Positions 6,479-58,895 of a stretch of DNA of 64,000 nucleotides are shown here, in pieces (the stretch's first letter is position 1; the number at the start of each line of letters is the position of its first letter). The stretch is from a virus. The translations under genes and the position numbers were made by a program. The stretch is from positions 1-64,000 of the IMG/VR virus record IMGVR_UViG_3300015199_000002. The stretch is one strand, 5' to 3'. Under the pieces are notes generated by a model. It had not been told where the DNA came from and searched no databases. It worked only from the letters and a program-made list of their open reading frames with translations.

Positions 6479-6652
6479 TTACCTCTTATCCGGCAGGAAT
6501 CCCTGAAGCCCCTTACTTCCAAAAAAAGCCGATGCGCACCACTCGACCCCTTGGACATACTCGTGAGTCAGTTTTCCAGTTAACGACAAAACTGTAAATA
6601 GAAGTATCACCGATCCTAGGGCTATAAGTTCTTCTCTTTCCAGGTAACTCAC
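6479..6652 (-). CDS. Small membrane protein, candidate holin or pinholin
   Basis: This 57-residue frame starts at a GTG overlapping the GIY-YIG stop by four bases (GTGA). It has one membrane segment (LIALGSVILLFTVLSL) followed by a short polar domain with a WCASAFFG segment. It lies directly before the DUF5675 gene, which fits a holin-endolysin pair. A single membrane span without a dual-start motif makes the assignment tentative. Confidence 0.5.
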   Translation of the reverse strand: MSYLEREELIALGSVILLFTVLSLTGKLTHEYVQGVEWCASAFFGSKGLQGFLPDKR

Positions 6653-19819: not shown

Positions 19820-19839
19820 AGTTTACGCAAATCTCGTTA

Positions 19840-23889: not shown

Positions 23890-23893
23890 TGGA

Positions 23894-28390: not shown

Positions 28391-28391
28391 A

Positions 28392-28835: not shown

Positions 28836-28847
28836 AATTATTTTATT

Positions 28848-38165: not shown

Positions 38166-38180
38166 TTAAAACTCTTAGTT

Positions 38181-38216
38181 TAAAAAAATAAGGGGGAGAA
38201 GAAGATTCTTCTCCCC
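38181..38216 (-). terminator. Rho-independent terminator
   Basis: On the minus strand a perfect 11-base stem, GGGGAGAAGAA with TTCTTCTCCCC, is followed by CTTATTTTTTT. It lies between two repeat-protein genes in the same direction and would attenuate transcription of the second. Confidence 0.9.
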
Positions 38217-38226
38217 AAGTTTTATA

Positions 38227-39693
38227 TTATACTTCTTGTCCGCAAATAGTGCTGTAAACATCCTGAGATTGATTATCTCTATTTGTCACCGCAACACGAA
38301 CTCGAACACCTGCCGCAACAGAAATAGGATCTTGAAGCGTAATGCTCATATTAGGAGTAGCCGTTGAATTGAATTGCACAAACTTAGAAGTAAATACTCC
38401 GGTCGCAACTCCAGTTTCAATTTCCACTTCAATTTTAGCTTTACCAGAGCCGGTAGCTTCGATTTGTTTCAAAAGAAGAGTTTTACCGGCGGTAACAGTG
38501 TAATCGTGGTTATTAGTAGCGTTAGCGGCCAACGTAGCAACCGTTTTATAATCATCAACTGCAGTTCCCAGAGGAGCTGAAGATAAAGTAACAGGAACAG
38601 GATTAGTACTAGATACGTCAGCCCCCGCAACAGCTAAGTTAGCCGCTACGCGAAGTGTCTGAGCTCCAGTTGCCCCGTTATTGAAATCAGCTGCCCCGGT
38701 GGCATTACCAATTTGAGCGGCAGATCTTACTGTATTAGCTCCAACAGTTCCATAGTTTGTGTCTACAGTAGTAGGAAAATTAGTGGAGGTGGTTGTTAGC
38801 GTTATACTGGTGGTGATGTCAACCTTAGATTCGCCGGAAGCTGTGAAGCTTTGGCTATTGGTACCATCTGTTAGCTTAACTGGCCACGCGTTGGCTATAG
38901 TATTAGGAGCTCCTTGATTGGAGGTAGTTCTTAAAGTTTGAGCTCCGGTGGCTCCCGCGTTGAAGTCAGCAGCTCCAGTTGCGTTACCAATTTGAGAGGC
39001 TGCTCTTAGAGTTTGAGCCCCGACAGTTCCGAAATTAAAGTCTGCAGCGCCTGTGGCGTTACCGATTTGGGCAGCGGTTCGGGGAGTATTTGCTCCAACA
39101 GTTCCGTAGTTATGGTCGTCGGTTGATGTGACGGTTGCGGTAACAAGAAGTCTACCACTAGAATCTACTTGAAGAGCCGCTTGCTGTCCGTTAGTTAAAG
39201 TGGGAAGAACAGTATTAAACTGGCCTCCCGTTAGCTGAGAGAATGAAGCAACTGTTCCTGGAGCCACTGGGCCATCAGATTGATCTTTAGTAATCCAAGG
39301 AGAGGTTCCTTGAGTCGTTGTTACAGTTCCCGACACCACCCAAGGGCTGGTTGATTGAGTAACCGCTACAGTCGCGGGAAAATTGTCTACGTTTACATGA
39401 AGATTAGCTCCAGAAGGTTGAACTACAGTAACCGTGTCTGAAGATGTTAGCGCTCTAATAGTACGAGGGTCAATTTGAACCCCGGCTACGTTAATACCAA
39501 CGTCTAGAGCTCGTTGAGCTCCATTAGTTTGTGATGTTAGACCATTCCCTGCGGCGTCGTCTAGTTTTGTTGTTATCTTACCAGCAGCATCTACTGCTAG
39601 AGCTTGGGATGTAATTGTTCCGTCTACGATCTTGGCGGCTACGTCTCCGTTATTTTCTGTTCTTACTGGCAGGCTGCTATTATAATCACTCAT
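38227..39693 (-). CDS. Repeat-rich virion protein
   Basis: The 488-residue protein has an N-terminal half with TQSTSPWVVSGTVTTTQGTS, a motif common in environmental phage decoration proteins. Five repeats of GTVGANTxRTAAQIGNATGA type follow (about 200-370), then a C-terminal beta domain. It shares repeats with its downstream neighbour. Start and stop overlap or abut its neighbours. Confidence 0.6.
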   Translation of the reverse strand: MSDYNSSLPVRTENNGDVAAKIVDGTITSQALAVDAAGKITTKLDDAAGNGLTSQTNGAQRALDVGINVAGVQIDPRTIRALTSSDTVTVVQPSGANLHVNVDNFPATVAVTQSTSPWVVSGTVTTTQGTSPWITKDQSDGPVAPGTVASFSQLTGGQFNTVLPTLTNGQQAALQVDSSGRLLVTATVTSTDDHNYGTVGANTPRTAAQIGNATGAADFNFGTVGAQTLRAASQIGNATGAADFNAGATGAQTLRTTSNQGAPNTIANAWPVKLTDGTNSQSFTASGESKVDITTSITLTTTSTNFPTTVDTNYGTVGANTVRSAAQIGNATGAADFNNGATGAQTLRVAANLAVAGADVSSTNPVPVTLSSAPLGTAVDDYKTVATLAANATNNHDYTVTAGKTLLLKQIEATGSGKAKIEVEIETGVATGVFTSKFVQFNSTATPNMSITLQDPISVAAGVRVRVAVTNRDNQSQDVYSTICGQEV

Positions 39694-39694
39694 G

Positions 39695-39874
39695 CTATCT
39701 CAGGTCCCTTACTTTTTCAGTTAGTTCTTTTTCTTTGTCTTCTTGTATCTTTACGTGCTCTTTCATCCTATCGATACTTTCGGATGCTTCTTCAATCCGA
39801 ACTTCCAGGTTCAGTTTAGCGGAATGAACTGCGGCCAACTCGGCCTTAATTTTCTTTATTTCTAGGGGAGTCAT
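39695..39874 (-). CDS. Small coiled-coil protein (59 aa)
   Basis: The frame starts at an ATG overlapping the previous stop (TAATG) and has a charged heptad pattern throughout (LEIKKIKAELAAVHS, VKIQEDKEKELTEKV). It is probably a short coiled-coil partner of one of the neighbouring virion proteins. Confidence 0.6.
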   Translation of the reverse strand: MTPLEIKKIKAELAAVHSAKLNLEVRIEEASESIDRMKEHVKIQEDKEKELTEKVRDLR

Positions 39875-40614
39875 TAACTTATCTCCAATATCTGTAATCT
39901 AGCTTCAAATGTTGCGACTGTTGGTCTTGTGTGAAGAACTTGTATTTGCACATTGTCTCCGGCAACCAGCTGAGTTCCGTTGTTGTCCCAAGATAAAAAG
40001 TCAAAAATTTCATTCATGCTTCCAAAAAAAGTTCTTCGGGTGTCCACCACCACGGAATTGAACAATAACGTGAACTTAGCTATATTCTCTCCTGAGACAC
40101 TTGCTTTTTGGAAAACAGCCGTCTTACTTAGAGGGACAGTATACGTAACTACCTGAGTTGTTATGGAGGAGGCTACTCCAGTGACCTCGTTGTAGGCGTT
40201 AATGACCTTGGTATTCGAGGGGATACTGCCGCCGGGGATTGTATATAAGCTGCCGTCAGGGGCAACCTTTAGTCCTATTAGGTCGGTCCCATCGGTGCCC
40301 CCTATTAGGGTCGCCTGGACGGGCGGAGGAGCTCCCGTAGGTCCTACAGAAGGATTCACGGCAGAGATCGTGCCTGAGACCTGTACTGTACCGTCGGGAG
40401 CTACTCTGATGGCGGCCTGAGGGCCGGTTAAGGTGCCGTCTGTGGTCCCAACCACTACTATGCTGTCTTCTTGGGATGTTATGACGAGAGTCTGCTGCCC
40501 GCCGATATTGACCGACGCGTCTATAGTCGTGCGGAGCTGATCATTAGGCTCGTCGTAGACTCGCTGAAGTATCTGCTGTTCACTAAGTTTAGTGATGTTT
40601 GGGTTTTTAGCCAT
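39874..40614 (-). CDS. Structural protein with shared N-terminal module
   Basis: The 246-residue protein begins NPNITKLSEQQILQRVYDE, the third copy of the module seen at 23425 and 28392. A different beta-rich body follows (VVVGTTDGTLTGPQAAIRV, then LNAYNEVT-like strands). It is the first gene after the scaffold. The body contains one copy of the recurrent TGTCCCT motif (40127-40138). Confidence 0.6.
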   Translation of the reverse strand: MAKNPNITKLSEQQILQRVYDEPNDQLRTTIDASVNIGGQQTLVITSQEDSIVVVGTTDGTLTGPQAAIRVAPDGTVQVSGTISAVNPSVGPTGAPPPVQATLIGGTDGTDLIGLKVAPDGSLYTIPGGSIPSNTKVINAYNEVTGVASSITTQVVTYTVPLSKTAVFQKASVSGENIAKFTLLFNSVVVDTRRTFFGSMNEIFDFLSWDNNGTQLVAGDNVQIQVLHTRPTVATFEARLQILEIS

Positions 40615-40729: not shown

Positions 40730-41683
40730 CTACACTCCCATGTTTCTTTTGCGCTTCGTGAACTCTCTCCAGCTTCCTCGATCTTGAGCGGGAGGGGCTT
40801 CAGTCTGCGATTCAGCGGGCTTAGAGAACTTGGGGTTCGCACTCTTCAATTGCTTCACCTTGGCTTTGGTGATGGCCTTGATGATGTCTTCTCCGAATAG
40901 CGAGATCAGTTTGTCTCCGTCGAGCGCTCCGTCTGCGCCTTTGTACCCGGATACGCGTTCTTGGAACTCTTTGTCATAGTCTTCGCGAGCGATCTTAGCG
41001 AGCTGTTCGGCAGGCATTTCCCAGCCGTTCTTGTTGCTAACGCGTTGAAGTTGTGCCATTCGTGCAATTGACCATGGAGTCTTAGGAACACCGGAGTCTT
41101 CTAATGCTTTTGTGAACAGTTTGTCAAGGCGGGTAATCTGTGCACGTTCTTCAGCCGTTGCAGCTTCCCGTTTCTTGGATTCTTCTCTTACCAACTCCGC
41201 TCTCTTAGCTTCTTCTGCGCGCTCAGCTTCTTTGGCTTCATAGGAGCGAACTTTTTCTTCGAGTTCGCGTTCTTTCTTAGCCGCAGGAGATTCTTGTTCT
41301 CGTTTGATAATTTCAGTGAGAGTTTCTTCTGAGAACTTGCGGAGGTCGATACCGAGTTTCTCCATGGCGACTTTTGGGTTCTCTTTAAGCATCTTGAGAA
41401 CGGCTTCGGTTTCTTTCCGGGACATCGCAGCGTCTTGAAATCTGCGGTTAGCTACTGAAGCCTGCTGAGCTAACTTAATCACGTCTTCTTCTGGAAGTTC
41501 AATATCTGCACCCTCAAGTTTCAACTTGAGTTTGCGAATTTCTTTAGCGGTGGGAGCAGGAGCTTCTGCTGCCGCGGGCGCCGCTACCTTTTCTGTGGCT
41601 GGAGCTACCTTGGTGACGTCTGAAGCCAACGAAGGCGTACTTGCGGGCGGGGCTACTGCTGGGGTTTCTACTGATTGTGACAT
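40730..41683 (-). CDS. Scaffolding protein
   Basis: The 317-residue protein has a low-complexity Ala/Pro start, a long charged helical middle (KKERELEEKVRSYEAKEAE, RREAATAEER-like) and a basic C-terminus ending in FTKRKRNMGV. This composition and its place after the portal gene are typical of podovirus scaffolds. The ATG follows AAAAAGGAGACATCAAA inside the end of the GIY-YIG gene. Confidence 0.75.
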   Translation of the reverse strand: MSQSVETPAVAPPASTPSLASDVTKVAPATEKVAAPAAAEAPAPTAKEIRKLKLKLEGADIELPEEDVIKLAQQASVANRRFQDAAMSRKETEAVLKMLKENPKVAMEKLGIDLRKFSEETLTEIIKREQESPAAKKERELEEKVRSYEAKEAERAEEAKRAELVREESKKREAATAEERAQITRLDKLFTKALEDSGVPKTPWSIARMAQLQRVSNKNGWEMPAEQLAKIAREDYDKEFQERVSGYKGADGALDGDKLISLFGEDIIKAITKAKVKQLKSANPKFSKPAESQTEAPPAQDRGSWREFTKRKRNMGV

Positions 41684-42369
41684 TTTGATGTCTCCTTTTT
41701 AGTTATTAATTGCGCGTTGTAGTATGTCAGGGTTGAAGTGTTTTCTTGCCGCCCCAACAACATGGCGGAAAGAGTCTGCTGTGTAATTTTTATTTTTGAA
41801 GCCGCAGACTTTATAGATTCAAATATTTCTCCAGTAACAGAGTCTACTATTTTTATTCGGCTGTGCGCCGGATGACTTATGCCTTTTTTGGCAGCGCTCA
41901 TTTTTGCTCTAGTTTCTTCCGACCTTACTGCTCCTAGGGCATTCTTATTGCCCGCGAGTGCTTTAGATATTTTAATCCCGGTCGCTGCTGGCCTTTTAAG
42001 TCCTAGATGTCCGTTTGGTTTTCCAGTTTTAGATTCTGAAAGCTTTCTTCTCATTTCTTCCGATCTTACTAACCCCTTAATGCCGGTGGAGTTATCGCCA
42101 CCTTTGGCTATATTGTAGCCGTCTGGAGTTAGTGCCTGGAAGTAATCTATGAAAAAGATCTCGGAGTCATTCAACTGCTCTTGAGATGCGCACCCGCTCA
42201 CCGTGTCTACGGTGAATGACTCGGCTCCATATTTTTTAATGGCTCTAGATAGCAGCGGGCAGCCACTATTTTTAGCCTTATGTTTTGACCATCGGGCTTC
42301 TAAAGACTGAACGGTCTGCCCTATGTAGCACTTTCCGTTCACTTTATTTGTGATTTTATATATTACCAT
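41668..42369 (-). CDS. GIY-YIG homing endonuclease
   Basis: The 233-residue protein starts MVIYKITNKVNGKCYIGQT (GIY-YIG core), continues SLEARWSKH, and has NUMOD3-type repeats (SEEMRRKLSESKTG, SEETRAKMSAAKKG) and a C-terminal helix-turn-helix-like segment. It is packed between the portal and scaffold genes and overlaps the scaffold start. It resembles the gene at 6649 and is mobile. Confidence 0.9.
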   Translation of the reverse strand: MVIYKITNKVNGKCYIGQTVQSLEARWSKHKAKNSGCPLLSRAIKKYGAESFTVDTVSGCASQEQLNDSEIFFIDYFQALTPDGYNIAKGGDNSTGIKGLVRSEEMRRKLSESKTGKPNGHLGLKRPAATGIKISKALAGNKNALGAVRSEETRAKMSAAKKGISHPAHSRIKIVDSVTGEIFESIKSAASKIKITQQTLSAMLLGRQENTSTLTYYNAQLITKKETSKCHNQ

Positions 42370-42371
42370 TT

Positions 42372-44453
42372 TTATTGCCCCGTTGATGCTTTCATATTCG
42401 CATATGCTTCTTGCGCCGCCGGTGTCGCCGCCTTGGGCAAGTTCGGCAATCCGGACGGCTTAATGGACTCGGCCTGCTGCATCCCGGGAGGGGTCGGGTT
42501 CTGCGTAGCTGGCATACCTGGTCCTGGAGGGCCGACAGGCTTTGGCGGACCCCCCTGTCCTGGAGGAGGGGGCGAGGCGGCTTGGCCAGGAGCAGGAGGG
42601 GCGCCTGGAGGCGGCATAGGAGTAAGCGGAGTCTGACCGAGAAGCGTCAGAAGCTGAGGGTCGCCGTTCTTAAGGGCGTCAATGTGGTCCTGGATATGCT
42701 TGGTCACTGCGTTGACAATAGCCGGCGTACTTCTTGCTTCTGGCGAGTCCAGGCAGGTAGAATGCTCCTTGATGTGCTCAACATGCTGGTCTGTGATAAC
42801 GACCATAACATTTTTACCGTCCTGGAGATCTTCGTTCTCACTTCGGATGTTTAGGATCTGGCTGGTCTCGTGCTCATACAAGGAGTCAATAGTGCCGGTG
42901 GTGATCACTTCGAAGTAATGGGCGGGGTTCGTGATCATTTTGTTCTGGAGAAGATCCTGCGCTTCCTGCAATCTTCCAGCAGGTGTTTTTGAGATAGGGT
43001 TAACTGTCTCAACGCACACTCTGTTGATGCCGTCAAGGTCGGATCCTTTGAATGCCTGCACTCGGAACCGGTTGCTTTTTCCGGCGATGCTTGCAATTCT
43101 CGGTGTTGCTGCATAGTCCTGTAGGATCTCAATCAACCCAGTGCCGACGTCCTCTAGGAGTCGGTTATAGGATTGCTGCAGGCCACTGTTGAATTGCACC
43201 GCTTGGGCGGCAACGAGGGCTAGGGCTGCGCCAGAGTGAAGGGAACTTTCCGGGTTACCGCGGGCGACACTGTTGATACCGGAGAGGGTTTCCATCAAGT
43301 GCTGAACTCGGTCAAGCTGACTGAAGATTTCAGCCGGGGTTTGCACCAGGTTCAGGGGCTCTGGTTTTCCGATGTTCTTATCATACTCAATGGCATTCAA
43401 GCCTTGAGCAAGAGCCACTACGTTGATCTCAGCACCACGAGGAATCAGGATGTTCTGAGTCCCGTAGTTCATCTGGTTGGTGGTGATGATAGACATCAAG
43501 GAGCTATAGATCTTCTGTAGCCCCATCAGGTCATAGGCCACCGTGTATCCGAACGGGGTACCAAAGAATTCAGCGGGAGCTATGCGGTAGATAGGAATAT
43601 GTTTGAATGCTAAGGGTCCATCGTTAAGATAGACGTCAACGTCAACAAATTCCATCTGCCGGCCGTTGGGAAGAGCAGGGGTGGGTTCGTGATAGAACTT
43701 ATACACCGGGATATAGTCGCCGTTAGTGTATGCATCGAATGTCAGGAATGAGTACCGGGAAAAGTAGTCAGGCGACTTAGATATGGACAGGATGTCGTTG
43801 GATTTGTCTGGGTACTTTGCTGCCAGATCGTATTTATTCTTAAACTCGCGTACGCACTTCCACGGCGGTCCTGCATTTGATTCTGACCAGCACTCGCGGA
43901 TCACGTCTAGAGGATGGAACGTGTTGAACACTGCGTCGCCGTCGTAGATGGGCTGTCCATTTTCTCCAACATCGTAGATCTGCCCTTTTGTGGCATCCCA
44001 GTCAAGAGTTACAAACCCCTCGCCTGAGATAATCGCTAGCTCTGTTGCCCTCTTTAATTCTATCTCGAGCCTTTTCTCCATCATGTAATAATCAAGTACT
44101 GAGCGGGCCAGAATTGTCTGATTAGCAGACTTAGAGTCGGTATTTTGCGCCGTCGGCTGAAGTGCAGGCCGTTGCGATGTAGTTAAGGTGAGAAGATTCT
44201 GAAGAAGGGAGCGGTAGTGATTGGGAATGCTGACGTAAAGTTCGCCATTCATGCCGCCTTGGTTTAATTTCGAACTATCCATTCCGGCCTGGGTGATCCC
44301 ATAATATGCTAAGTAGGATCTCTTCCACTTATCCAAGAATTGGAATTTTGAGGTGAACATGTAAAAGTCCATAATTTTTTTGCTGAGGGTTCTGGTAAGG
44401 TCTTCAGGAGAAGCTGCTCCCCAATATTGGTCTGTCGTTGCGCCGATACTCAT
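42372..44453 (-). CDS. Portal protein
   Basis: The 693-residue protein has the length and content of podovirus portals: KWKRSYLAYYG then YVSIPNHYRSLLQNLLTLT near the start, and a portal core with VFNTFHPLDVIRE and PIYRIAPAEFFGTPFG. A Pro/Gly-rich C-terminal tail starts near residue 610. It follows the large terminase, the usual order. The tail is a low-complexity proline run that may be flexible inside the capsid. Confidence 0.85.
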   Translation of the reverse strand: MSIGATTDQYWGAASPEDLTRTLSKKIMDFYMFTSKFQFLDKWKRSYLAYYGITQAGMDSSKLNQGGMNGELYVSIPNHYRSLLQNLLTLTTSQRPALQPTAQNTDSKSANQTILARSVLDYYMMEKRLEIELKRATELAIISGEGFVTLDWDATKGQIYDVGENGQPIYDGDAVFNTFHPLDVIRECWSESNAGPPWKCVREFKNKYDLAAKYPDKSNDILSISKSPDYFSRYSFLTFDAYTNGDYIPVYKFYHEPTPALPNGRQMEFVDVDVYLNDGPLAFKHIPIYRIAPAEFFGTPFGYTVAYDLMGLQKIYSSLMSIITTNQMNYGTQNILIPRGAEINVVALAQGLNAIEYDKNIGKPEPLNLVQTPAEIFSQLDRVQHLMETLSGINSVARGNPESSLHSGAALALVAAQAVQFNSGLQQSYNRLLEDVGTGLIEILQDYAATPRIASIAGKSNRFRVQAFKGSDLDGINRVCVETVNPISKTPAGRLQEAQDLLQNKMITNPAHYFEVITTGTIDSLYEHETSQILNIRSENEDLQDGKNVMVVITDQHVEHIKEHSTCLDSPEARSTPAIVNAVTKHIQDHIDALKNGDPQLLTLLGQTPLTPMPPPGAPPAPGQAASPPPPGQGGPPKPVGPPGPGMPATQNPTPPGMQQAESIKPSGLPNLPKAATPAAQEAYANMKASTGQ

Positions 44454-44459
44454 TGTTAA

Positions 44460-46001
44460 TTATCTCCTGAACTTTCTATCTTTTGAATTTGAAAATACGC
44501 TGGGCATCTGTGCTGCCAAGTCTCTCTGCGCCGGCTCCTCTTTTGGAGCAAGAAGTTTCTTTAGGCCTGACATCGACGCATTGTTGTATCTGTCATCTTT
44601 TATGACCATGCCGCGAACATTTAACTTATAGTTCGGTGGGAACGGGTTGCTGTATCTGTTTATGTTCCTGACAAAGTACTGGAGCGCGGCTAAGAGGTCG
44701 AAGTGGCCATTCTCGCTGTCTCTGCAGAAGCTTGTCCTGGCCGGATTCCAGGTGGCGTCTTCTATCTGCCCGATAAGTTTCTGGCACCGGGGGTGGATAA
44801 TCAGCTTGTAGCCCTGGATGTCAAGTCGAATAGAATTCGCTTGAGCTTCTACATTGTCTTTGTTCGTAACCATCCCGATCGGGTAACGGTGGACAGTGTT
44901 TATGTCGTTGATCGTGAATGCCTGTCCGTCTGCGATGCGGTTAGTGGCTTTCATGGGCTCTTCTCCCCATAGCGCGACTTCTTTTTCTCTACAGGCTTTC
45001 ACCAGTGTTGCTGAGTTGACGCCCTTAAGTAAAAGTTCGTCTTCGATTACCACGAAGCCCTTGGGAAAGTGATAGTATCCGAATAGGACGCCGCAGAAGT
45101 CAACTAGACCTAAATCGGCAGACACCAGCGAGTGGAAGAAGTCGGGGCGAACGATGTCGTCGCGTACTAGGTGTTCTTTAAATTTTGACCATTCGGGGAT
45201 CACTGCGTTTACTTCGTCAATCAAAAAATTACACAAATATTCTCGTTGAAATGTTGAGCTATTATAGCCGCCGGTCTCTCTATACTGGTCTGCGATTCTG
45301 TCTACGTCTGCCTTGGAAAATTTCTTGACGTCAAGAATAGTCTGCTTTAAGTATAGGCCGTCTTCCTGCGCGCGCCGCGTGAATATCTTTACGAACGGGT
45401 GCCCGGGGGTCATGGGGGCGTTGGATAGCAGGATCATTGCTCCGCCCGTGGTTGTAGTCATGGGAGAAAGAACAGAGTTCACCGCGGTCTCAAGGTGATC
45501 TATGAACCCGGCTTCGTCGACCACGATCTTATGCGCCGTGAGTCCTCGTATCTTTTGAAGTCTTCCGCCATCCAACCCAGTGAGCTTAATAGTAGAGCCG
45601 TTAGTGAAAACGTACTGGTTGTACTGAGTCTTTAGCTTTGCGCGCAAATCTTCTGGGGCATCTTTAAAAATTTCTTGGTACGAAGGAAGGATCATGTCCT
45701 TGACAGCCTTCTGCGTCGCTCCTGTGTATAGAATAAAGCTACCCGGGTGAGTCAGCGCGTATTCTATGCAAATTACGGCTGCCATAAAAGTTTTTCCAGA
45801 GCGTCTGGAGGCGTTTAGAACAAATCTACTGTTAGGGATTTCGGCTGCTTTTTTTATGGCTGCGTACGCAACTTGCTGATGAGACTCTAGCTTCCAGGAA
45901 AGATCGCCCTTCCTCCACAACGAAGCGGTTATCTGACGTCTGGCGGACTCTTTCTTACCGGCTAATTCCTCGGCTGTTATTGTTTCGCTAACGTCTTGCA
46001 T
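44460..46001 (-). CDS. Large terminase subunit (TerL)
   Basis: The 513-residue packaging motor has an ATPase with Walker A SRRSGKT at 65-71 and Walker B IVVDEAGF near 159-166. A nuclease domain begins at SLVSADLG with Asp296 as a likely metal ligand and has a further acidic site in NGHFDLLAALQYF near 450. It cuts and pumps DNA into the prohead through the portal. It starts three bases after the preceding gene. Confidence 0.92.
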   Translation of the reverse strand: MQDVSETITAEELAGKKESARRQITASLWRKGDLSWKLESHQQVAYAAIKKAAEIPNSRFVLNASRRSGKTFMAAVICIEYALTHPGSFILYTGATQKAVKDMILPSYQEIFKDAPEDLRAKLKTQYNQYVFTNGSTIKLTGLDGGRLQKIRGLTAHKIVVDEAGFIDHLETAVNSVLSPMTTTTGGAMILLSNAPMTPGHPFVKIFTRRAQEDGLYLKQTILDVKKFSKADVDRIADQYRETGGYNSSTFQREYLCNFLIDEVNAVIPEWSKFKEHLVRDDIVRPDFFHSLVSADLGLVDFCGVLFGYYHFPKGFVVIEDELLLKGVNSATLVKACREKEVALWGEEPMKATNRIADGQAFTINDINTVHRYPIGMVTNKDNVEAQANSIRLDIQGYKLIIHPRCQKLIGQIEDATWNPARTSFCRDSENGHFDLLAALQYFVRNINRYSNPFPPNYKLNVRGMVIKDDRYNNASMSGLKKLLAPKEEPAQRDLAAQMPSVFSNSKDRKFRR

Positions 46002-47518: not shown

Positions 47519-48096
47519 TCTGGTTTACTAGCGATCTCCATTTCGGCCACGAAGCAGTTATTGGATATTCTAAGCGCCCGTTTGACTCTCTAGAAGACAT
47601 GCACACAGAGTTAATTTTACGCTGGAACGAGTGCGTCCAACCAGAAGACACGGTTTATGTTCTAGGAGACTTGGCACTTTGTCCTTACCAGATTTTCGAG
47701 CCAATCGCCACGCGACTCAAGGGTAAAAAGGTTCTGGTAAAAGGAAATCACGACAGTTACTCCAATGGGCAGTACGAACGCGCCGGGTTCCAAGTATTTG
47801 ATGAGATTAAGATGAAGATAGCGGGGCAAGTATGCAGGCTGTCACACTTTCCGTACCGGTTGCCTTGGTATATGCGACCCTTTGCGTATAAATCGGAACT
47901 TAGATTCATGGACCGCAGGCCCCCCAGGATTCCAGGAGAGATACTTTTGCACGGGCACTCACACGTAAAGTACAAGTACGCCGACAGCAGGATACATGTG
48001 GGAGTAGATGCTTGGGATTTTTACCCAGCGTCGGTACGAGAAATAGAATCTATAATCAATAAAATGTCAAAGAAACCTACCTCAGAAACTCCCTAA
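47515..48096 (+). CDS. Calcineurin-like metallophosphoesterase (second copy, different branch)
   Basis: The 193-residue protein has FTSDLHFGHEA, DTVYVLGDLALC, VLVKGNHD and LLHGHSHVKYKY, typical of phage YfcE-like phosphoesterases. Its sequence is too far from its neighbour to be a recent duplicate. Possible substrates include cyclic nucleotides, which could matter in defence evasion, but nothing in the sequence shows this. It runs 20 bases into the serine recombinase gene that converges on it. Confidence 0.85.
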   Translation: MIWFTSDLHFGHEAVIGYSKRPFDSLEDMHTELILRWNECVQPEDTVYVLGDLALCPYQIFEPIATRLKGKKVLVKGNHDSYSNGQYERAGFQVFDEIKMKIAGQVCRLSHFPYRLPWYMRPFAYKSELRFMDRRPPRIPGEILLHGHSHVKYKYADSRIHVGVDAWDFYPASVREIESIINKMSKKPTSETP

Positions 48097-48673
48097 GAAA
48101 GTCGCTCTGAATAGGATTTCGAGACTTCTTGTTGAACAAAGACACCACGCTGCCTTTTGACATACCGGTAGCCTTTGATATTTCGTTAAAGGTGTGTCCG
48201 TCGTTCCGCATGTTCATAGCCAGCGTCAGAGTCTCCACAGAGTGCTTGCCTGGGGGGCCGAGCCTCTGCCCCTTTTCCTTCTTTGCCTGGAGCGCAGCCT
48301 TAGTCCGCTGGCTGATCAGGGACCTCTCCAGCTCTGCCACCATCACCATGGCCTGGGCGGTGAATCTGCCCGACGGGGTGCTGTAATCGACCCCCTCCCG
48401 AAGAGATACGATGTTAACCCCTCGTTTGTACAGGCCCTCAATCAGCCCAATTATGTCTAGGAGCTTCCTTCCTAGGCGATCTAAGGCGGCTATGGCTAAG
48501 GTGTCTCCAGACTGGATCTTCTTTAGGAGCTTCTCTAGCTCTGGTCGCTCCTTGACACCGCTTGCGGTCTCCCGGTACAGGAATGCCTCTGGGTAGCGCT
48601 TTAGGAGATCGTGCTCCTGCGTATCTACGACCTGCTTGTTCGAACTCACGCGACAGTATATGTAAATCGACAT
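48077..48673 (-). CDS. Serine recombinase (resolvase/invertase type)
   Basis: The start is placed at MSIYIYCRVSSNKQ because this begins the catalytic domain. Ser10 in CRVSSNKQ is the likely nucleophile and LDRLGRK holds the family arginines. A C-terminal helix-turn-helix (NEISKATGMSKGSVVSLF) binds DNA. Short members catalyse inversion or resolution; large integrases of this family are much longer. It may invert a segment of phage DNA, but no partner sites were identified. Confidence 0.85.
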   Translation of the reverse strand: MSIYIYCRVSSNKQVVDTQEHDLLKRYPEAFLYRETASGVKERPELEKLLKKIQSGDTLAIAALDRLGRKLLDIIGLIEGLYKRGVNIVSLREGVDYSTPSGRFTAQAMVMVAELERSLISQRTKAALQAKKEKGQRLGPPGKHSVETLTLAMNMRNDGHTFNEISKATGMSKGSVVSLFNKKSRNPIQSDFLREFLR

Positions 48674-48813
48674 ACTTAGAGCGTATACTGACCGGTCATT
48701 GAAAGCAAGTAAAATCTTGGTAAGGGGCGCCATTGGCTACCGGGTTCAGTTTTACCTTACCCGCTGGACGAGCGTTGCCCTTTTACTCCTGCCTACTCGG
48801 AACCTCATTCACT

Positions 48814-51514: not shown

Positions 51515-51554
51515 GGGACACAGGGTTTCCCCGACTCTGTGTCCCAAACTTTTT
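51515..51554 (+). terminator. Rho-independent terminator
   Basis: GGGACACAG and CTGTGTCCC form a perfect nine-base stem with a 13-base loop, followed by AAACTTTTT. It separates the first accessory gene from the hexapeptide-repeat gene. Confidence 0.7.
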
Positions 51555-51575: not shown

Positions 51576-52118
51576 ATGAAGAAATACAAACTACGGCTAG
51601 ATCTTAAGTTAGAAGTGTACAGTAAGACTCTCTATAGAATCGAGAGGTTACGTGACGGCAAACCTACAGGCGACGTAGGCGGTTACATTGAGAGTGAAGC
51701 TAACCTCTCCCAAGACGGCACCTGTTGGGTGTACGGCGACGCTTGGGTGTACGGCAACGCTCGGGTGTCCGGCAACGCTTGGGTGTTCGGCAACGCTTGG
51801 GTGTTCGGCAACGCTCAGGTGTACGGCGACGCTCTGGTGTACGGCGACGCTCGGGTGTCCGGCGACGCTTGGGTGTCCGGCGACGCTTGGATATCTTCAG
51901 TAAATGAAATAGTTAATTTCATAATTGCATTCAGTTTTTCTATCACTATAACTCCCGATAACATTGCAATAGGGTGTCAACTAAAAAAGCGTTCGGAATG
52001 GCTTAAGGTGTCAATCGACGACGCCGAGAAGATGGGCCTGCCTCGCGAACTATTCCCTCAGTACAGGAAGCTTGTTAAGATCGGAATGAAACTGGTCCCT
52101 AAAAGGAGTTCAAAATGA
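51576..52118 (+). CDS. Hexapeptide-repeat (beta-helix-like) protein
   Basis: The 180-residue protein has three parts. An N-terminal segment (about 1-52) is conserved in all three copies. A repeat domain (about 53-105) has WVYGDA, RVSGNA, WVFGNA, QVYGDA, LVYGDA and so on. The C-terminal domain is unlike that of 53249. In the repeats Val, Gly and Ala codons are nearly fixed (GTG, GGC, GCT), and variation sits in three codons and changes the residue. It follows ATTGGAGGCAGT, the same leader as 53249. A left-handed beta-helix fold is inferred. Confidence 0.85.
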   Translation: MKKYKLRLDLKLEVYSKTLYRIERLRDGKPTGDVGGYIESEANLSQDGTCWVYGDAWVYGNARVSGNAWVFGNAWVFGNAQVYGDALVYGDARVSGDAWVSGDAWISSVNEIVNFIIAFSFSITITPDNIAIGCQLKKRSEWLKVSIDDAEKMGLPRELFPQYRKLVKIGMKLVPKRSSK

Positions 52119-52907: not shown

Positions 52908-53252
52908 ATGGCAATCGAGCATGACATCAGGAAAGCAATGATACTCGCCTCTGACATATTCCAAGACGAGCCCGGTACAGACGAAGAGATCGAGATCCTA
53001 CAGAGTATTCCTAGTCTTGGGCGCGATAGAGTTGAGTGCATAGATGCACGCATGCCTACATTGTTCGATGAGTTGTATGACGCGGAGATGAGTCTTCAGG
53101 TGAAACTTCTCGTCCTCGCGTGCGCACGGGGGATTGGGCTTCCAGTACCTTCGCTTGAGGTTGGTGTGGTGTCGGCTATGCATAGAGCTATTGGTTTGCG
53201 CGCTGAGTATTTGGCTTCGGATGAAGGTGAACTAGAATTGGAGGCAGTATGA
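52908..53252 (+). CDS. Hypothetical protein (114 aa)
   Basis: The protein is acidic and mostly helical, with LQVKLLVLACARGIGLPVPS in the middle. AAGAAAGGAATTCAT precedes the start. Its stop overlaps the next hexapeptide gene (ATGA), whose leader ATTGGAGGCAGT lies inside this gene's end. Confidence 0.6.
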   Translation: MAIEHDIRKAMILASDIFQDEPGTDEEIEILQSIPSLGRDRVECIDARMPTLFDELYDAEMSLQVKLLVLACARGIGLPVPSLEVGVVSAMHRAIGLRAEYLASDEGELELEAV

Positions 53253-53791
53253 AGAAATACAAGCTACGGTTAGACCTTAAGTTAGAAGTACACGGAACAA
53301 CTCTCTATAGAATCGAGAGGTTACGTGACGGCAAGCCTACAGGCGACGTAGGCGGTTACATTGAGAGTGAAGCTAACCTCTCCCAAGACGGCACCTGCTG
53401 GGTGTACGGCAACGCTCTGGTGTACGACAACGCTCGGGTGTACGACAACGCTCGGGTGTACGGCGACGCTTGGGTGTTCGGCAACGCCCTGGTGTACGGC
53501 AACGCTTGGGTGTTCGGCAACGCTCTGGTGTCCGGCAACGCTTGGGTGTCCGGCGACGCTCGTATTGATTCAATTGATGCGATAATAGTTTTAACCATAG
53601 CCGCGTCATATTCAGTAACCATAACAAGAACTCTTATTTTTGCTGGATGCGCTAAAATAAGCCGATCTAAGATCAACAGCATGACTGCCAAACAATTCCA
53701 AAGGATAGGGGGTAATCCCAAATACTTTAAGGCGTACAAACAAATGGTCTTGGGCGCCATGCTTATAGTCAAACCTAAGAAAGCGAAATGA
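53249..53791 (+). CDS. Hexapeptide-repeat (beta-helix-like) protein
   Basis: The 180-residue paralogue of 51576 has an almost identical first 52 residues, eleven six-residue units with a different order of variants (LVYDNA, RVYGDA, WVFGNA), and a distinct C-terminal domain. DNA identity extends into the leader. The same length but different end suggests exchange of modules between copies. Confidence 0.85.
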   Translation: MKKYKLRLDLKLEVHGTTLYRIERLRDGKPTGDVGGYIESEANLSQDGTCWVYGNALVYDNARVYDNARVYGDAWVFGNALVYGNAWVFGNALVSGNAWVSGDARIDSIDAIIVLTIAASYSVTITRTLIFAGCAKISRSKINSMTAKQFQRIGGNPKYFKAYKQMVLGAMLIVKPKKAK

Positions 53792-53792
53792 T

Positions 53793-54218
53793 ATGCGTAG
53801 TTACTCCATCTTATCTGCAATGATTTTACTCGCGTGCGCGCCTAAGCAACCGATCACCATTGATCAGAACTTGGTGCCATACTTCGAGATGTTTCAGAAT
53901 ACGATTGGAGTATCTACTGCGGACGTGTCCGGGCGAATGGATGAGCTAGTGTTGCCTACGATTGGCGTATGCACGGTGGATGAGTCGGGAAACAAGGTCG
54001 TGCATATAGACGCCACCTACTGGAATGCAAGTAACGATGATGCGCGCGAGATGTTAGTGTTCCATGAGCTCGGGCACTGCGCTATGGGTCGGGTTCACGA
54101 CGTGGCGGTTGATAAGTACGGGTGCCCATTGAGTATTATGTATCCCCATGATTTTCCAGATAAGTGTTTCGAAGTGAATAGACAGGCTTATTACGCTGAG
54201 ATGATTTCTTATAAATGA
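53793..54218 (+). CDS. Lipoprotein zinc metallopeptidase
   Basis: The 141-residue protein has a lipobox with Cys15 (MILLACAP), so it should be lipid-anchored in the envelope. It carries HELGHCAMGRVH at 91-102, with likely zinc ligands His91, His95 and His102 and catalytic Glu92, followed by a Met-turn-like SIMYP at 114-118. The layout resembles metzincins, with one extra residue before the glycine. It would cut proteins at the cell surface or periplasm; its target is unknown. It is close to the hexapeptide and pilin-like genes. Confidence 0.75.
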   Translation: MRSYSILSAMILLACAPKQPITIDQNLVPYFEMFQNTIGVSTADVSGRMDELVLPTIGVCTVDESGNKVVHIDATYWNASNDDAREMLVFHELGHCAMGRVHDVAVDKYGCPLSIMYPHDFPDKCFEVNRQAYYAEMISYK

Positions 54219-54229
54219 AAGGAGATTAT

Positions 54230-54694
54230 ATGATTTGTCATGTTTGTAAAAAGGATGCGGTTAGGAATGAAGTGCTGGGTAAAGAGTTTTTCTACTGTCG
54301 CGCATGCAAGATTGAGGTTGTTGAGTGGACTTGCGAATACTCTGGCACTGTTACAGGTAGATTTCAGTGTGTTAATCCTAATCCCTCGTCGATCCCCAAA
54401 CCGGGTGCGACTCAATCTGGCGCAGCTCTGCATAATCCCAGTTCAATCATGCCCGCTGGAGTGCGCGTACAACCGAGGGTCGCTTTCGAGCTCGACAAAC
54501 TGCGAATAGGAGACGAACTTGAAGCTCTGATTGACCATCCAATGTGCGCAGGCATCAGTAAAGGAACTATAGAGTCTGTTCTTTCGATAAGTTTCGATTC
54601 CAATACTTGGGTATCGAATAGAACATTCATGTGCCCCATGGACAATGTGGACGGTAAGGGGTCTATTTTATTCAAAAGAAAGGCAAAACCATGA
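54230..54694 (+). CDS. Protein with N-terminal zinc ribbon
   Basis: I use the ATG at 54230 because AAAGGAG lies in front of it. The protein begins MICHVCKKDA and has CRACK further on, so four cysteines probably bind zinc. A Ser/Pro linker leads to a beta-rich C-terminal domain. The function is unknown. Its stop overlaps an ATG at 54691. Confidence 0.6.
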   Translation: MICHVCKKDAVRNEVLGKEFFYCRACKIEVVEWTCEYSGTVTGRFQCVNPNPSSIPKPGATQSGAALHNPSSIMPAGVRVQPRVAFELDKLRIGDELEALIDHPMCAGISKGTIESVLSISFDSNTWVSNRTFMCPMDNVDGKGSILFKRKAKP

Positions 54695-54765
54695 TCGGTA
54701 AACCAAGACACAATTGCAACCGGCCTACAAAGAAGGCACAATATTCCATAGGGAGAACTAATATC

Positions 54766-54996
54766 ATGAAGCTGTATAAACTGAACTCAAACAGATGGGC
54801 GATGCTAAGTGGTGAGACTTATATCAAAGGAACACTAGAGGAAGTACGCAAGGTTATGGAAGGCACGCCATTCCTCGTAGACCCAGATGCGATTGACGTA
54901 GCACTTCAAGAAATGGCGGTTACGGGCGACAACATCGCTGACTTCGGGATCGCAGGATACTTCATAACGACCAGCAAAGACGCGGAAGCGGCATAA
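54766..54996 (+). CDS. Hypothetical protein (76 aa)
   Basis: The start at 54766 (MKLYKLNSNRWAMLSGETY) follows GGGAGAAC. An in-frame ATG at 54691 overlapping the previous stop, with AAAGG in front, is an equal alternative and would add 25 residues. The protein is a small alpha/beta domain (GTLEEVRKVMEGTPFLV). No family is recognised. Confidence 0.6.
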   Translation: MKLYKLNSNRWAMLSGETYIKGTLEEVRKVMEGTPFLVDPDAIDVALQEMAVTGDNIADFGIAGYFITTSKDAEAA

Positions 54997-55012
54997 GAAA
55001 AGGGAGATTACA

Positions 55013-55210
55013 ATGGAAACTACACAACAGATGAAAGACATTTTGGCGGCGATTGACTCAGTGAAGGCTAGAGCTAAGGCTTGCATCAAGTCAGGACAGA
55101 GGATGGAAGCGGAGAAGCTTGTAGGTGACTTGATTGCCCTTGACGCCTGCTTGGTTGGAGAAGTGGCGTCACAGGTAAAGACTGAAGAGTCTGGCAGAGA
55201 TGCCGCGTAA
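55013..55210 (+). CDS. Hypothetical helical protein (65 aa)
   Basis: METTQQMKDILAAIDSVKAR begins a wholly helical small protein with two cysteines. An AAAAGGGAG sequence precedes the start. It is not recognised. Confidence 0.55.
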   Translation: METTQQMKDILAAIDSVKARAKACIKSGQRMEAEKLVGDLIALDACLVGEVASQVKTEESGRDAA

Positions 55211-55220
55211 AGGAGAATTT

Positions 55221-55562
55221 ATGCGATCATGGTGGCCTATTGAAGCATCTATACTAGATAACAAGCGCCTTCTGGGCGAACATAATGAATTACTTATTAT
55301 GGCCAGAGCAATCGCCGGGATAAACAAAGGATATAGAAATCATCCTGAAACTAAACGGTGGATAGGTCATTCAAAAGCAATGAAGCGACGACACAACGAA
55401 TTAGCTGATGAAATGGAAAAAAGGGGATTTAATCACAAAAGTCCTTGGCCTGATAATGTTATGAATTCGGATGATACCGACGCTTGGCCAAATACTTTTT
55501 GGGAATCCCTTGATGTTATGAAAACAAAACTAGCTGAGAAAATGGGAAAGGAAACTCTATGA
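55221..55562 (+). CDS. Pyrimidine dimer DNA glycosylase (endonuclease V-like)
   Basis: The 113-residue protein matches the T4 endonuclease V family: LLGEHNELL, GYRNHPETKRWIGH, then HNELADEMEKRGFNHKSPWP. These proteins cut at ultraviolet-induced pyrimidine dimers. The start at 55221 follows AAAGGAGAATTT. In T4 the residue after Met is the nucleophile; here it is Arg, as in several bacterial relatives. It would repair phage DNA or host DNA after damage. Confidence 0.75.
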   Translation: MRSWWPIEASILDNKRLLGEHNELLIMARAIAGINKGYRNHPETKRWIGHSKAMKRRHNELADEMEKRGFNHKSPWPDNVMNSDDTDAWPNTFWESLDVMKTKLAEKMGKETL

Positions 55563-56182
55563 CAAACAACAAAGGTTTTACCCTAATCGAAACAATGATC
55601 GCGATGGGGCTCATGTGCCTAGGAGCCCTAGCTTTCGCGCAGATTGTCACCAACATGGGTCTGGCCCAGAATTGGAGCGACTTCAGACTTGCTACAAACT
55701 CCCTGGCGTCTTCTATGGTCGGGAGCTTGAATAACCCAGCAAGTTGCACACAGGGGTTTTCGGGTATTACTTTTGTGCCTACTGGCAATCCTGTGCCGGT
55801 TAGCTTTGGCCTACCGAACAGGGTCCTAGGTGCCGGAGTTATCGTGCCAAACTACAAGTTGAGCATCTTGTCTCTTAACTTCATTAACTACGTTCCGGTT
55901 CAGAATAATCCAGACGGAAGTGTAACGTACTTTGGGGATCTGTCCATGACAACTAAAGCCAGCAAGAAAGTGCTGGGAGGAGACACGTCTACTGTAGTTG
56001 TCGACTCTATCTACTTGACGACTATGGCAAGTTTGGTAGTGGCTTGCGGTAACGTCTCACCTCCTTCTCCGAGTCCCTCTCCGTCGCCGACTCCAGACCC
56101 TACACCGCTACCATCTCCGGTTCCGACATACACCTATACGCCGGAACACAACGATTCGCCTTGCGATCACGATAACCATTAA
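55559..56182 (+). CDS. Type IV prepilin-like protein
   Basis: The first residues are a canonical class III signal, MTNNKGFTLIETMIAMG: a short basic leader, Gly6, then Phe7 and Glu11 (position +5 of the mature protein). A 20-residue hydrophobic helix follows. The body is beta-rich, and the C-terminal 40 residues are a Ser/Pro linker (PPSPSPSPSPTPDPTPLP) and a His/Asp-rich end. Length (207 aa) suits minor pilins or pseudopilins. Its ATG overlaps the glycosylase stop (ATGA). Maturation would need the host prepilin peptidase. Confidence 0.85.
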   Translation: MTNNKGFTLIETMIAMGLMCLGALAFAQIVTNMGLAQNWSDFRLATNSLASSMVGSLNNPASCTQGFSGITFVPTGNPVPVSFGLPNRVLGAGVIVPNYKLSILSLNFINYVPVQNNPDGSVTYFGDLSMTTKASKKVLGGDTSTVVVDSIYLTTMASLVVACGNVSPPSPSPSPSPTPDPTPLPSPVPTYTYTPEHNDSPCDHDNH

Positions 56183-56200
56183 CCAGTGAAAGGATATGAT

Positions 56201-56473
56201 ATGAAATTTAAAAAGAAGTTCGTTGAATACAGAGAAGCAGAGGTTCGCACCGTAAAAGCCGGCAAGGGTTACCACTTTGCAATTCCCATAAATGACTTAG
56301 AAAGAGAGATGAGTAGAAAAGACATATTTAAACGGGCTCACTTCTTTAACGATCACGGAAGTGTATATGCGGCATTCACAACTTTATATCAAGTCTATGA
56401 AAACGGAGAGAAGTTCGACTTCTTTGTAACGAAGAAGGCCGCCATAAAGCGCGCAAAAGACTATCTTAAATAA
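56201..56473 (+). CDS. Hypothetical protein (90 aa)
   Basis: The ATG at 56201 is preceded by GAAAGGATATGAT. The protein begins MKFKKKFVEYREAEV and is highly charged throughout, with an alternating basic/acidic C-terminus. No family is recognised. Confidence 0.6.
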   Translation: MKFKKKFVEYREAEVRTVKAGKGYHFAIPINDLEREMSRKDIFKRAHFFNDHGSVYAAFTTLYQVYENGEKFDFFVTKKAAIKRAKDYLK

Positions 56474-56483
56474 AGGAGTATAT

Positions 56484-56621
56484 ATGTGGTATATTTTATA
56501 CACAAGTGCTCAAGGCACGCAGCATCAGTCAGAGTTTTACATGGACTTCTGGTCTGCGTACAAAGATGCTAAGAGACTTGTTGGGAGCCGATGCTTTGAA
56601 GTCGAACTTGTAACTACTTGA
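56484..56621 (+). CDS. Small hypothetical protein (45 aa)
   Basis: AAAGGAG lies eight bases before the ATG. The protein (MWYILYTSAQGTQHQSEFYM) is rich in aromatics and has no membrane segment. It is not recognised. Confidence 0.55.
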   Translation: MWYILYTSAQGTQHQSEFYMDFWSAYKDAKRLVGSRCFEVELVTT

Positions 56622-56633
56622 AAGGAAACTAGA

Positions 56634-57392
56634 ATGAGAATTGCATTACTTATTTGTCTTGTGGCTTTAGCCGGATGTGAGCAGCAACAGGACTTGATCT
56701 CTAATGGCACGAATGGTGCCACAGGCGGTACCGGTGCTAATGGATCGGACGGGTCGCAAGGTGCAACCGGTGCCACAGGTGCTCAAGGCGAGGCCGGAGC
56801 AGCTGGGTCCATAGGTAGGGCTGGGAGTACAGGGGTAAACGGCGCTATGGGCATTCCTGGGTCTAATGGGACAAATGGCGCTAACGGTGCGGCCTGCCAG
56901 CAGGGGGCTAAGGGTGCCTCCGGCGCTACCGGAGCTTCTGGGCTAAACGGCGTTTCAGGTAAGAACGGATCTACTGGTGCCTCTGGAGCCAACGGTTCAA
57001 CTGGACTGAATGGGTCTGCCGGGACTGGCGGCGGTAGCGGGACTAAGGGCGCTACCGGTGCAACAGGGGCGACAGGCGCTAGTGGCCTTAAAGGACCTAC
57101 TGGGAATACAGGGGCTACAGGACCCCAGGGACTTAAAGGCGACCAGGGAGGCAAGTGCGGCACCCGAGTCTCTTTCGTCCTGAAGGCATTCTCATGCCTA
57201 AAGATTACAACGGATTACCACGCTACTGTTTGCGAGAGAGGCATTACGTTGCATAAGAGTGAGAGGTGCGATGATGACTATGACAAGGTATTAGTCATTG
57301 ACAAGGACCACCATGCTCTCTATATCAACGGCGTTCTATACTTGAAAGACAGCGCCAATGACTCTATACTTGATACTATTGATTTTAACTAA
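56634..57392 (+). CDS. Collagen-like lipoprotein
   Basis: A short signal peptide ends in a lipobox (LVALAGC, Cys15). Residues 24-174 are Gly-X-Y triplets rich in Asn, Thr and Ala (GATGATGAQGEAG), with one interruption near 86-90 containing Cys. The last about 75 residues are a separate domain with four cysteines. Collagen-like triplets form trimers, so it would be a lipid-anchored triple-helical protein at the cell surface. It is in the same operon as the prepilin. A virion function is less likely because of the lipobox. Confidence 0.85.
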   Translation: MRIALLICLVALAGCEQQQDLISNGTNGATGGTGANGSDGSQGATGATGAQGEAGAAGSIGRAGSTGVNGAMGIPGSNGTNGANGAACQQGAKGASGATGASGLNGVSGKNGSTGASGANGSTGLNGSAGTGGGSGTKGATGATGATGASGLKGPTGNTGATGPQGLKGDQGGKCGTRVSFVLKAFSCLKITTDYHATVCERGITLHKSERCDDDYDKVLVIDKDHHALYINGVLYLKDSANDSILDTIDFN

Positions 57393-57404
57393 AAAGGGAA
57401 CCAT

Positions 57405-57884
57405 ATGAATAAACTAATGATGCTTTTGATTCTTTTCTCTACCTCTGCAATGTCCGATCAGTCCTGCCATAAAGAAGTGAGCTGTGTTGAAGAGAGGCAG
57501 TGCGTATACCGCAAGCCTGTCGTCCGAACGGTTGTAAAGAGAGTGGTTGTTGAGAAGGTAGTGGAGAAGATTGTCTATGTCGATCGACCGGTAGAGAAGA
57601 CCGTTGTCGTTAACCAGATCTCAATTGGCAATAAGAGTGGTTCCAACGAGAAGAGAGTCTTGGTAGATAAGAATAGTAGTAACCGTAACTCAATCAGTCT
57701 ATTGGGAATGGCTACCCCTACTGCTTTGAATGTCCAAGGAACTGCCAATAACTACAAAGCTTCTACAGAGTACCGGCCGGACCTCGGGTTAATGTACCAG
57801 CGTGACTTCGGGGACAGCGTCCGGGGATCTCTTGGTGCGACGATTAGGGGTAATGGTCTTGCTGCGCTTGGATGGAATTTTTAA
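57405..57884 (+). CDS. Exported protein with Val-rich repeats and OMP-like C-terminus
   Basis: The 159-residue protein has a Sec signal (MNKLMMLLILFSTSAM), two or more cysteines, and a valine/lysine-rich stretch (VVKRVVVEKVVEKIVYVDRP). Its C-terminal segment (LGATIRGNGLAALGWNF) ends in Phe like outer-membrane beta-barrel strands. The Val-rich segment resembles the virion-region protein at 21139. An outer-membrane-associated role is possible. Confidence 0.65.
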   Translation: MNKLMMLLILFSTSAMSDQSCHKEVSCVEERQCVYRKPVVRTVVKRVVVEKVVEKIVYVDRPVEKTVVVNQISIGNKSGSNEKRVLVDKNSSNRNSISLLGMATPTALNVQGTANNYKASTEYRPDLGLMYQRDFGDSVRGSLGATIRGNGLAALGWNF

Positions 57885-58209: not shown

Positions 58210-58642
58210 ACTTCTTAACTCTCTTCCTAGACTTCTTAGCTTCCAGCAACTTACGAGACCGAGCACTCTTAGCGGCCTCCCTGTTCTCTGAAGCTACCCG
58301 ACGGACTGCCCTAACACTCTCAGCGACCGCATGACTGTCTAGGATCTCGGCCATGGCAGGCTCTACTCCCCCGCTGTTCCTGTCTACGGAAACACCGTCG
58401 TTAACGAAGGTCATGGCATCTCTTTGAATCTTCTTGTTCTCACGCCAGATCTTACGCTTCTCGTCCTGGTCATCTGTTATCATACCGGGGTAACCACCCG
58501 ACCAACCTCGGTTGAAGTTGTCTAGGTAATCCTTATCTTTATCTGAGAGCTTGTTGTGGTAGTCGGCTTCGGACATCCACTTGAGTCCGGGTTTGAATGC
58601 CGCTAATTTCTTTTTAGGTTTTTTGTTTGACTGATCTGACAC
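58202..58642 (-). CDS. Basic hypothetical protein (146 aa)
   Basis: The protein is highly basic at both ends (KKPKKKLAAFKPG; KLLEAKKSRKRVKKSS) and acidic in the middle. No domain is recognised. It is the last of the leftward replication-side genes and may bind nucleic acid. Confidence 0.6.
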   Translation of the reverse strand: MSDQSNKKPKKKLAAFKPGLKWMSEADYHNKLSDKDKDYLDNFNRGWSGGYPGMITDDQDEKRKIWRENKKIQRDAMTFVNDGVSVDRNSGGVEPAMAEILDSHAVAESVRAVRRVASENREAAKSARSRKLLEAKKSRKRVKKSS

Positions 58643-58676
58643 TTTCCATATCCACTGTTCTGCCCTGCGTTGATTG

Positions 58677-58895
58677 TTATGAAGTAATCTTTTCGGCGTA
58701 GTATTCGGCCACCGTTGCCCGGGGCCAGCCGATGATCTTAATCGCCGTCTGACCTTTCATGAAGCCCACTGTGAACTCGGCGTCAGTTATCTCGACCCTA
58801 AGACTATCCGCGCCGTCCCTTGGCACGATATGCTGGGAGTTCATCCCGCTACCTGATGCGAATTTAACTACTAATGACTCGCACTTGATGATCAT
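58677..58895 (-). CDS. Hypothetical protein (72 aa)
   Basis: A small beta-rich protein (MIIKCESLVVKFASGSG) whose ATG overlaps the stop of the upstream gene by four bases. No family is recognised. Confidence 0.55.
   Translation of the reverse strand: MIIKCESLVVKFASGSGMNSQHIVPRDGADSLRVEITDAEFTVGFMKGQTAIKIIGWPRATVAEYYAEKITS

Follow-up and report, generated by a model that had tools for sequence, protein, structure and literature searches.

Phage moron and superinfection-exclusion genes, which lie outside the virion genes and whose products act on the host envelope or pilus, are the nearest described parallels to the genes considered here, and in the reviewed pilus cases these products act on assembly ATPases or on pilin expression (PMC11436027). 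We analyzed positions 53793-57884 (+ strand) of a 64,000-base window, the whole stretch of DNA under study, which comprises bases 1-64000 of the 82,984-base IMG/VR virus record IMGVR_UViG_3300015199_000002. Phage accessory envelope genes are known as such; this locus holds whole proteins of host type, by sequence a complete prepilin and metzincin-like and collagen lipoproteins, the last of which (56634-57392) forms a small recurrent pair with a linker/beta-tail protein (57405-57884). The four genes are mostly of host type and lie in a variable region of loose cargo; in the related phages compared, no part of the cluster but this pair occurs together a second time.

In the open-access literature searched, almost nothing was found on phages of the Bdellovibrio phylum, some of whose members use pili and surface fibres to kill other bacteria. 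A phage lineage with a pilus subunit, a collagen-stalk lipoprotein and a surface metzincin would provide direct candidates for phage control of the host surface or of lysis, and the lipoprotein/beta-tail pair offers a small testable unit. The host is probably a member of Bdellovibrionota, to which TerL, the capsid and the cargo point; the best annotated-phage match for TerL and capsid is the Silvanigrella aquatica phage CP017838 (27% and 26%), and Silvanigrella is placed in the Bdellovibrionota group in the broad sense. No end repeats were found in the 82,984-base record. Further relatives were picked up in IMG/VR with TerL profiles, and 13 were compared, several of them fragments; they include G299 (82,065 bases), G302 (80,981), G301 (62,716) and G307 (67,662), with capsid, portal, TerL and tail proteins about 30-49% identical to those of this phage where they match and the polymerase 27-28%. 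No relatives came out of scans in which viral contigs were searched with one protein at a time (prepilin, metallopeptidase, TerL or polymerase). Searches of phages and plasmids with the cluster proteins (tblastn) gave one weak phage match and a Bdellovibrio plasmid; the annotated neighbours of the matching plasmid gene are hypothetical proteins almost throughout, and none bears a name that would mark it as a counterpart of a cluster gene.

Four envelope-type genes and their cellular counterparts

An original prediction for this stretch had placed four envelope-type genes at 53793-57884. All are present as real open reading frames (ORFs) on the one strand, each preceded by a ribosome-binding-site-like motif, and targeting of the four products to the envelope is well supported by their sequence signals (lipoboxes, a prepilin leader and a Sec signal).

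The first gene (53793-54218) matches Pfam PhageMetallopep (PF18894) at 7.5e-6, above cut-off, and shares with the HELGHC lipoprotein metallopeptidases of Bacteroidota and Bdellovibrionota the same lipobox, HELGHC-x5-H motif, SxM Met-turn and length. Its lipobox, ILLAC, deviates mildly from the rule of [LVI][ASTVI][GAS]C behind an n/h region in having Leu at -2 and was accepted as such, and the catalytic region reads HELGH...SIMYP. Scanning genomes with a profile built from two rows gave 369 confirmed loci, of which the 80 kept are mostly from Bacteroidota (Saprospiraceae), with some from Bdellovibrionota; the lipobox rule was passed by 63 of 81 cellular homologues, and in a 42-row alignment the lipobox Cys, the HExxH residues (H91-E92-L-G-H95) and the Met-turn residues S114 and M116 were invariant. 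Spacing to the third zinc ligand departs from HExxHxxGxxH/D, in that within HELGHCAMGRVH the invariant His102 comes one residue later and the consensus Gly varies; the zinc motif (HELGH-x6-H) is thus one residue longer than the metzincin consensus, and "metzincin-like" is therefore the precise term. By sequence, no match was found among solved structures. An AlphaFold2 model (pLDDT 93) has a predicted metzincin fold, for which Foldseek returned snapalysin/selecase (E 3e-3, prob 0.99) and VIA-align returned MMP and snapalysin chains with Z of 8-9.8, reaching 9.8 over 108 residues with MMPs.

Phage encoding itself sets this protein apart from the cellular HELGHC peptidases, as does the signal or transmembrane (TM) anchor of two phage relatives. 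In both of these relatives (G299 and G302) the gene is flanked by primase and polymerase genes (the primase, and the G302 polymerase, were named from position and sequence, with no family search), and it therefore recurs in the lineage as an accessory without being linked to the other three genes. In the tree, the three phage copies (this phage, G299 and G302) were placed among Bdellovibrionota rows and not within the Bacteroidota clade, which is supported at 99/91, and the sole plasmid match for the protein by tblastn was on Bdellovibrio sp. HM001. A TerL search of nine genomes behind metallopeptidase loci found no provirus.

The prepilin gene (55559-56182) encodes the leader MTNNKG/FTLIE, with N_methyl (5.8e-7) and TIGR02532 both above cut-off, and has the short charged leader, G/F cleavage site, E5 and hydrophobic helix of type IV prepilins. 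Matches are encoded in 93 of 290 Bdellovibrionota genomes, and the likeness extends beyond the N-terminal helix, as the prepilin body alone gave shuffle z values of 11.5 (L086), 8.1 (L087), 7.6 (L089) and 6.4 (L090). In the short loci around several of these matches no obvious pilus operon was seen; with such orphan prepilins the phage protein shares leader, N-methyl helix, a conserved single-Cys region and a similar body, and it differs in being shorter, in its Pro-rich, His-ended tail and in its location in a phage. No match was found among 50,697 phage records. An apparent match to a solved pilin was a Pro-rich chance match and was discarded; there was none otherwise.

The third gene (56634-57392) encodes a lipoprotein with lipobox ALAGC, of which LAGC fits the consensus above, and a collagen stalk (Pfam Collagen 1.9e-20) of 49 Gly-X-Y triplets in two runs with a three-residue break at Cys88, followed by a Cys-containing head of about 78 amino acids. 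At the collagen rise of about 0.29 nm per residue, the 147 Gly-X-Y residues would span up to about 43 nm if fully extended. Of 290 Bdellovibrionota genomes, 145 encode collagen domains, versus 3 of 14 controls, and the collagen-stalk lipoproteins of that phylum have the same lipobox, Gly-X-Y stalk and small C-terminal head. Among the relatives, G302 encodes a collagen-type lipoprotein, and G301 and G299 encode lipoproteins with coiled-coil-like stalks; the heads of these three form a small family that 11 of 290 Bdellovibrionota genomes also encode in lipoproteins, several of these having collagen stalks (best match 5e-10), whereas the head of 56634 has no detectable match. The fibres of Bdellovibrio built of MAT proteins (PMC10769870) share the idea of a surface fibre and the phylum, but MAT proteins are beta-helical trimers and the words collagen and lipoprotein are absent from that paper.

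Collagen repeats also match many PHROG tail-fibre families, and in relative G308 a collagen ORF directly follows the tail genes, so the collagen protein could be thought to serve in the virion, as a tail fibre or spike of the kind that many phages have. This is very unlikely here, since collagen repeats match any collagen, the lipobox and signal peptides argue against a virion location, and the block lies outside the structural region (6-46 kb), which is on the other strand.

Gene order in relatives and the favored explanation

The original prediction had read the cluster as a single module changing the host surface and had named conservation of gene order as the check. In the relatives the genes are scattered: beside the differently placed metallopeptidase, the stalked lipoproteins of G302, G301 and G299 are far away in separate small-gene regions, and the prepilin was found in none of the 13 relatives, several being fragments. 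The exception is 56634 with 57405, a pair that recurs adjacent in G301 (57418 and 58305, with a 4-bp overlap). Judged by the condition that the original prediction gave for its refutation, the cluster is largely coincidental apart from this pair, and neither a single module nor a conserved four-gene system kept together in relatives is supported. A host-surface function is the most natural inference because three of the products resemble surface proteins of the likely host phylum.

We favor, with moderate confidence, an accessory operon of host-derived envelope proteins that probably remodels the surface of the infected cell, together with a lineage-specific lipoprotein/beta-tail pair. On this explanation, envelope genes would have been gained from hosts one at a time into a + strand operon at about 51.6-58.2 kb of an approximately 83-kb Bdellovibrionota phage, and their products would enter the Sec, Lgt/LspA/Lol and prepilin-peptidase pathways of the infected cell. 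The metzincin-like lipoprotein may then be membrane-bound and act on envelope proteins by cutting or trimming them; the prepilin may be cleaved by the host prepilin peptidase and join, or poison, type IV pili or a type II secretion pseudopilus; and the collagen-stalk lipoprotein may form a trimer that exposes its head at the outer membrane and has the linker/beta-tail protein as its partner. Surface remodeling would be the most likely net effect; by likeness to phage proteins acting on pili (PMC11436027), the foremost candidate forms are receptor masking, superinfection exclusion and pilus interference.

Several findings weigh against this explanation. Exported proteins, counted by a crude N-terminal rule and by eye, make up 16 of 119 gene calls genome-wide and 4 of the 10 genes in the block (local P 0.03, the block having been chosen post hoc), but 67% of shuffled gene orders hold some run of 10 genes with at least four exported, and density alone is therefore no evidence for a module. 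By count, the clustering is within chance. A DNA-repair family gene and small genes without known function are interleaved in the block, the metallopeptidases of G299 and G302 have a signal or TM anchor in place of the lipobox, and the long phage branches make the exact place of the phage copies in the tree uncertain. Neither the head of 56634 nor any part of 57405 matched in 290 Bdellovibrionota genomes; host origin of 57405 is therefore unsupported, and 56634 is host-type by its stalk only. The host phylum is itself inferred from sequence, with no CRISPR spacer or tRNA link (the 64-kb window contains no tRNAs).

In a second reading, each gene is useful or neutral cargo on its own, without a purpose shared among them, and their proximity in a variable region is coincidental; we consider this less likely but plausible. 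The scan statistic (0.67), the scatter in relatives and the interleaved DNA-repair gene are as such cargo would have it; the location of both clear lipoproteins of the genome inside the block (P 0.006, post hoc) and the renewed pairing of lipoprotein and beta-tail protein in G301 are not.

Because predatory Bdellovibrio use pili and surface fibres for prey entry (PMC3818213, PMC10769870), the pilus and fibre proteins might instead be lysogenic-conversion genes that aid prey attachment by a predatory host in a carrier or lysogenic state, and an invertase/resolvase-type recombinase is encoded nearby (48077-48733). We hold this reading very unlikely: neither a repressor nor a clear integrase was recognised, the presence of genes for DNA polymerase, primase and repair is suggestive of a lytic lifestyle, and the predatory nature of the host is an assumption.

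The lipoprotein/beta-tail pair and a possible role in lysis

Returning to the pair, the product of 57405-57884 has a signal peptide, MNKLMMLLILFSTSAMS, a CX5CX5C motif, an extended VEKxVYVDRPVEK linker and an outer-membrane-protein-like C-terminus (...LAALGWNF). The C-terminus of its G301 counterpart (58305-58775) is related to it (z 5.6, 0 of 1000 shuffles), and G299 43361 is related to record gene 79689 of this phage (z 5.7) and more weakly to the G301 protein (z 3.9); direct comparison of 57405 with 79689 was not significant (z 0.4). All four end in a Phe-terminated alternating segment resembling the beta-signal of outer-membrane proteins, following an extended linker of 60-85 residues. As for a trimeric outer-membrane anchor of the YadA/TolC type, in which four C-terminal beta-strands per chain form a barrel as a trimer, the ends are beta-signal-like by pattern only, and a single-sequence AlphaFold2 model of 57405 had a pLDDT of 33. 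No more beta-tail relatives were found in a scan for them or in 280-290 Bdellovibrionota genomes. Matches of 57405 to L002 and L003 had only the low-complexity VEKIVYVDK linker in common and were discarded.

Spanins (Rz/Rz1, T1 gp11) likewise combine a lipoprotein beside a periplasmic partner with a linker that can bridge the periplasm. Among the alternatives to a surface function, the most interesting is that the beta-tail family acts in lysis. The pair, or the related 79689-80174 protein of the record, might be an unusual spanin, linking the membranes across the periplasm and held at the outer-membrane end by a beta-tail or a lipid-anchored stalk: 79689, G299 43361 and G301 58305 have an uncleaved-looking N-terminal TM segment, the linker would extend to 20-28 nm before a C-terminus that ends in Phe with alternating hydrophobics, the lipoprotein adjoins its partner in two phages, G299 gives a weak PHROG Rz-like hint (E 0.09), and no other spanin was recognised in this phage. 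We consider this unlikely, as 57405 itself has a cleavable-looking signal and no inner-membrane anchor, the gene order is reversed (lipoprotein before partner), the lipoprotein greatly exceeds the 40-amino-acid mature domain of the Rz1 example in a spanin survey (PMC6139136), and one genome holds two beta-tail proteins. Nor does a holin or endolysin adjoin the pair, candidate lysis genes being at 6.1-7.8 and 67.6 kb. A two-component spanin has an i-spanin with an N-terminal TM domain beside an o-spanin lipoprotein in or near a lysis cassette (PMC6139136), which 57405 does not fit in signal type, gene order or setting, and a unimolecular spanin has an N-terminal lipobox and a C-terminal TM domain, neither of which is present in 57405 or 79689. 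The family would nevertheless act as a spanin does if its two ends reach both membranes.

A bolder proposal is that Bdellovibrionota phages encode an envelope-bridging device of a new kind (members 57405, 79689, G299 43361 and G301 58305). Its N-terminus would be an inner-membrane anchor or signal, its C-terminus an outer-membrane beta-tail, and its linker would match the periplasm in length; in two phages it would be coupled to a trimeric, stalked lipoprotein resembling host surface proteins. The device would form either a lysis link, spanin-like but beta-anchored, or a phage-made fibre on the cell surface, while the prepilin that the phage supplies would subvert host pili; we regard this as quite unlikely.

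Two observations concern lipoproteins and lysis more generally. G299 encodes three lipoproteins at 71521-71820, 75360-75857 and 75888-76337, two of them adjacent, and several lipoproteins are carried by the lineage as a whole. At 67649-68050 the record encodes a transglycosylase-like protein with a signal peptide (PHROG endolysin-domain families), a candidate lysis enzyme.

Layout of the block and other genes

The transcription unit likely starts upstream of 53793, after a terminator-like 13-bp hairpin (51515-51545, + strand) found by pattern scan and taken as the likely upstream border of the accessory unit; terminator-like sites were not enriched over shuffles in that scan. Directly before the metallopeptidase is a YdcK-like beta-solenoid repeat protein (53249-53791, +; Pfam B_solenoid_ydck 1.4e-12) with paralogues at 51576-52118 and in two genes at 81-83 kb of the record (blastp 60-73%), and the upstream gene 52526 is a paralogue of 64448. 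The genes between the four envelope-type ORFs, all on the + strand, are tightly packed. They are a CxxC...CxxC zinc-ribbon-like small protein (54230-54694; paralogue at record 80278-80775, z 7), small genes of unassigned function at 54691-54996, 55013-55210, 56201-56473 and 56484-56621, and a member of the pyrimidine dimer DNA glycosylase family (Pyr_excise, 55221-55562; Pfam 3.1e-23). Since the last is not envelope-related, the block is not purely envelope-directed. The idea that a block was duplicated, so that 53-58 kb and 79-83 kb would share the order YdcK, zinc ribbon, beta-tail, held for YdcK and zinc ribbon only.

The four YdcK-like paralogues (window 51576-52118 and 53249-53791; record 80987-81463 and 82469-82966) are 46-78% identical over shared parts, with in-frame repeat variation. 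Near the accessory block, the DNA invertase/serine-recombinase family gene at 48077-48733 (-; phrog_125 3e-50) shares the genome with these repeats and with repeated fibre-like genes. A Clp-protease-like protein with a possible signal peptide is encoded at record 65844-66500 (-; Pfam 8.5e-7), a secreted ClpP relative being odd for a phage, and Sec-signal proteins matching or resembling it occur in G302 (19221-20000) and G299 (44029-44961). Within the structural region, paralogous genes at 6649-7488 and 41668-42369 start with MxIYKITNKxNGKCYIGQT and presumably resemble GIY-YIG homing endonucleases, no family search having been made. Fibre-like genes are repeated at 23425-30719 and 36351-40614, with N-terminal or internal segments about 47-84% identical, which suggests shuffled tail-fibre modules.

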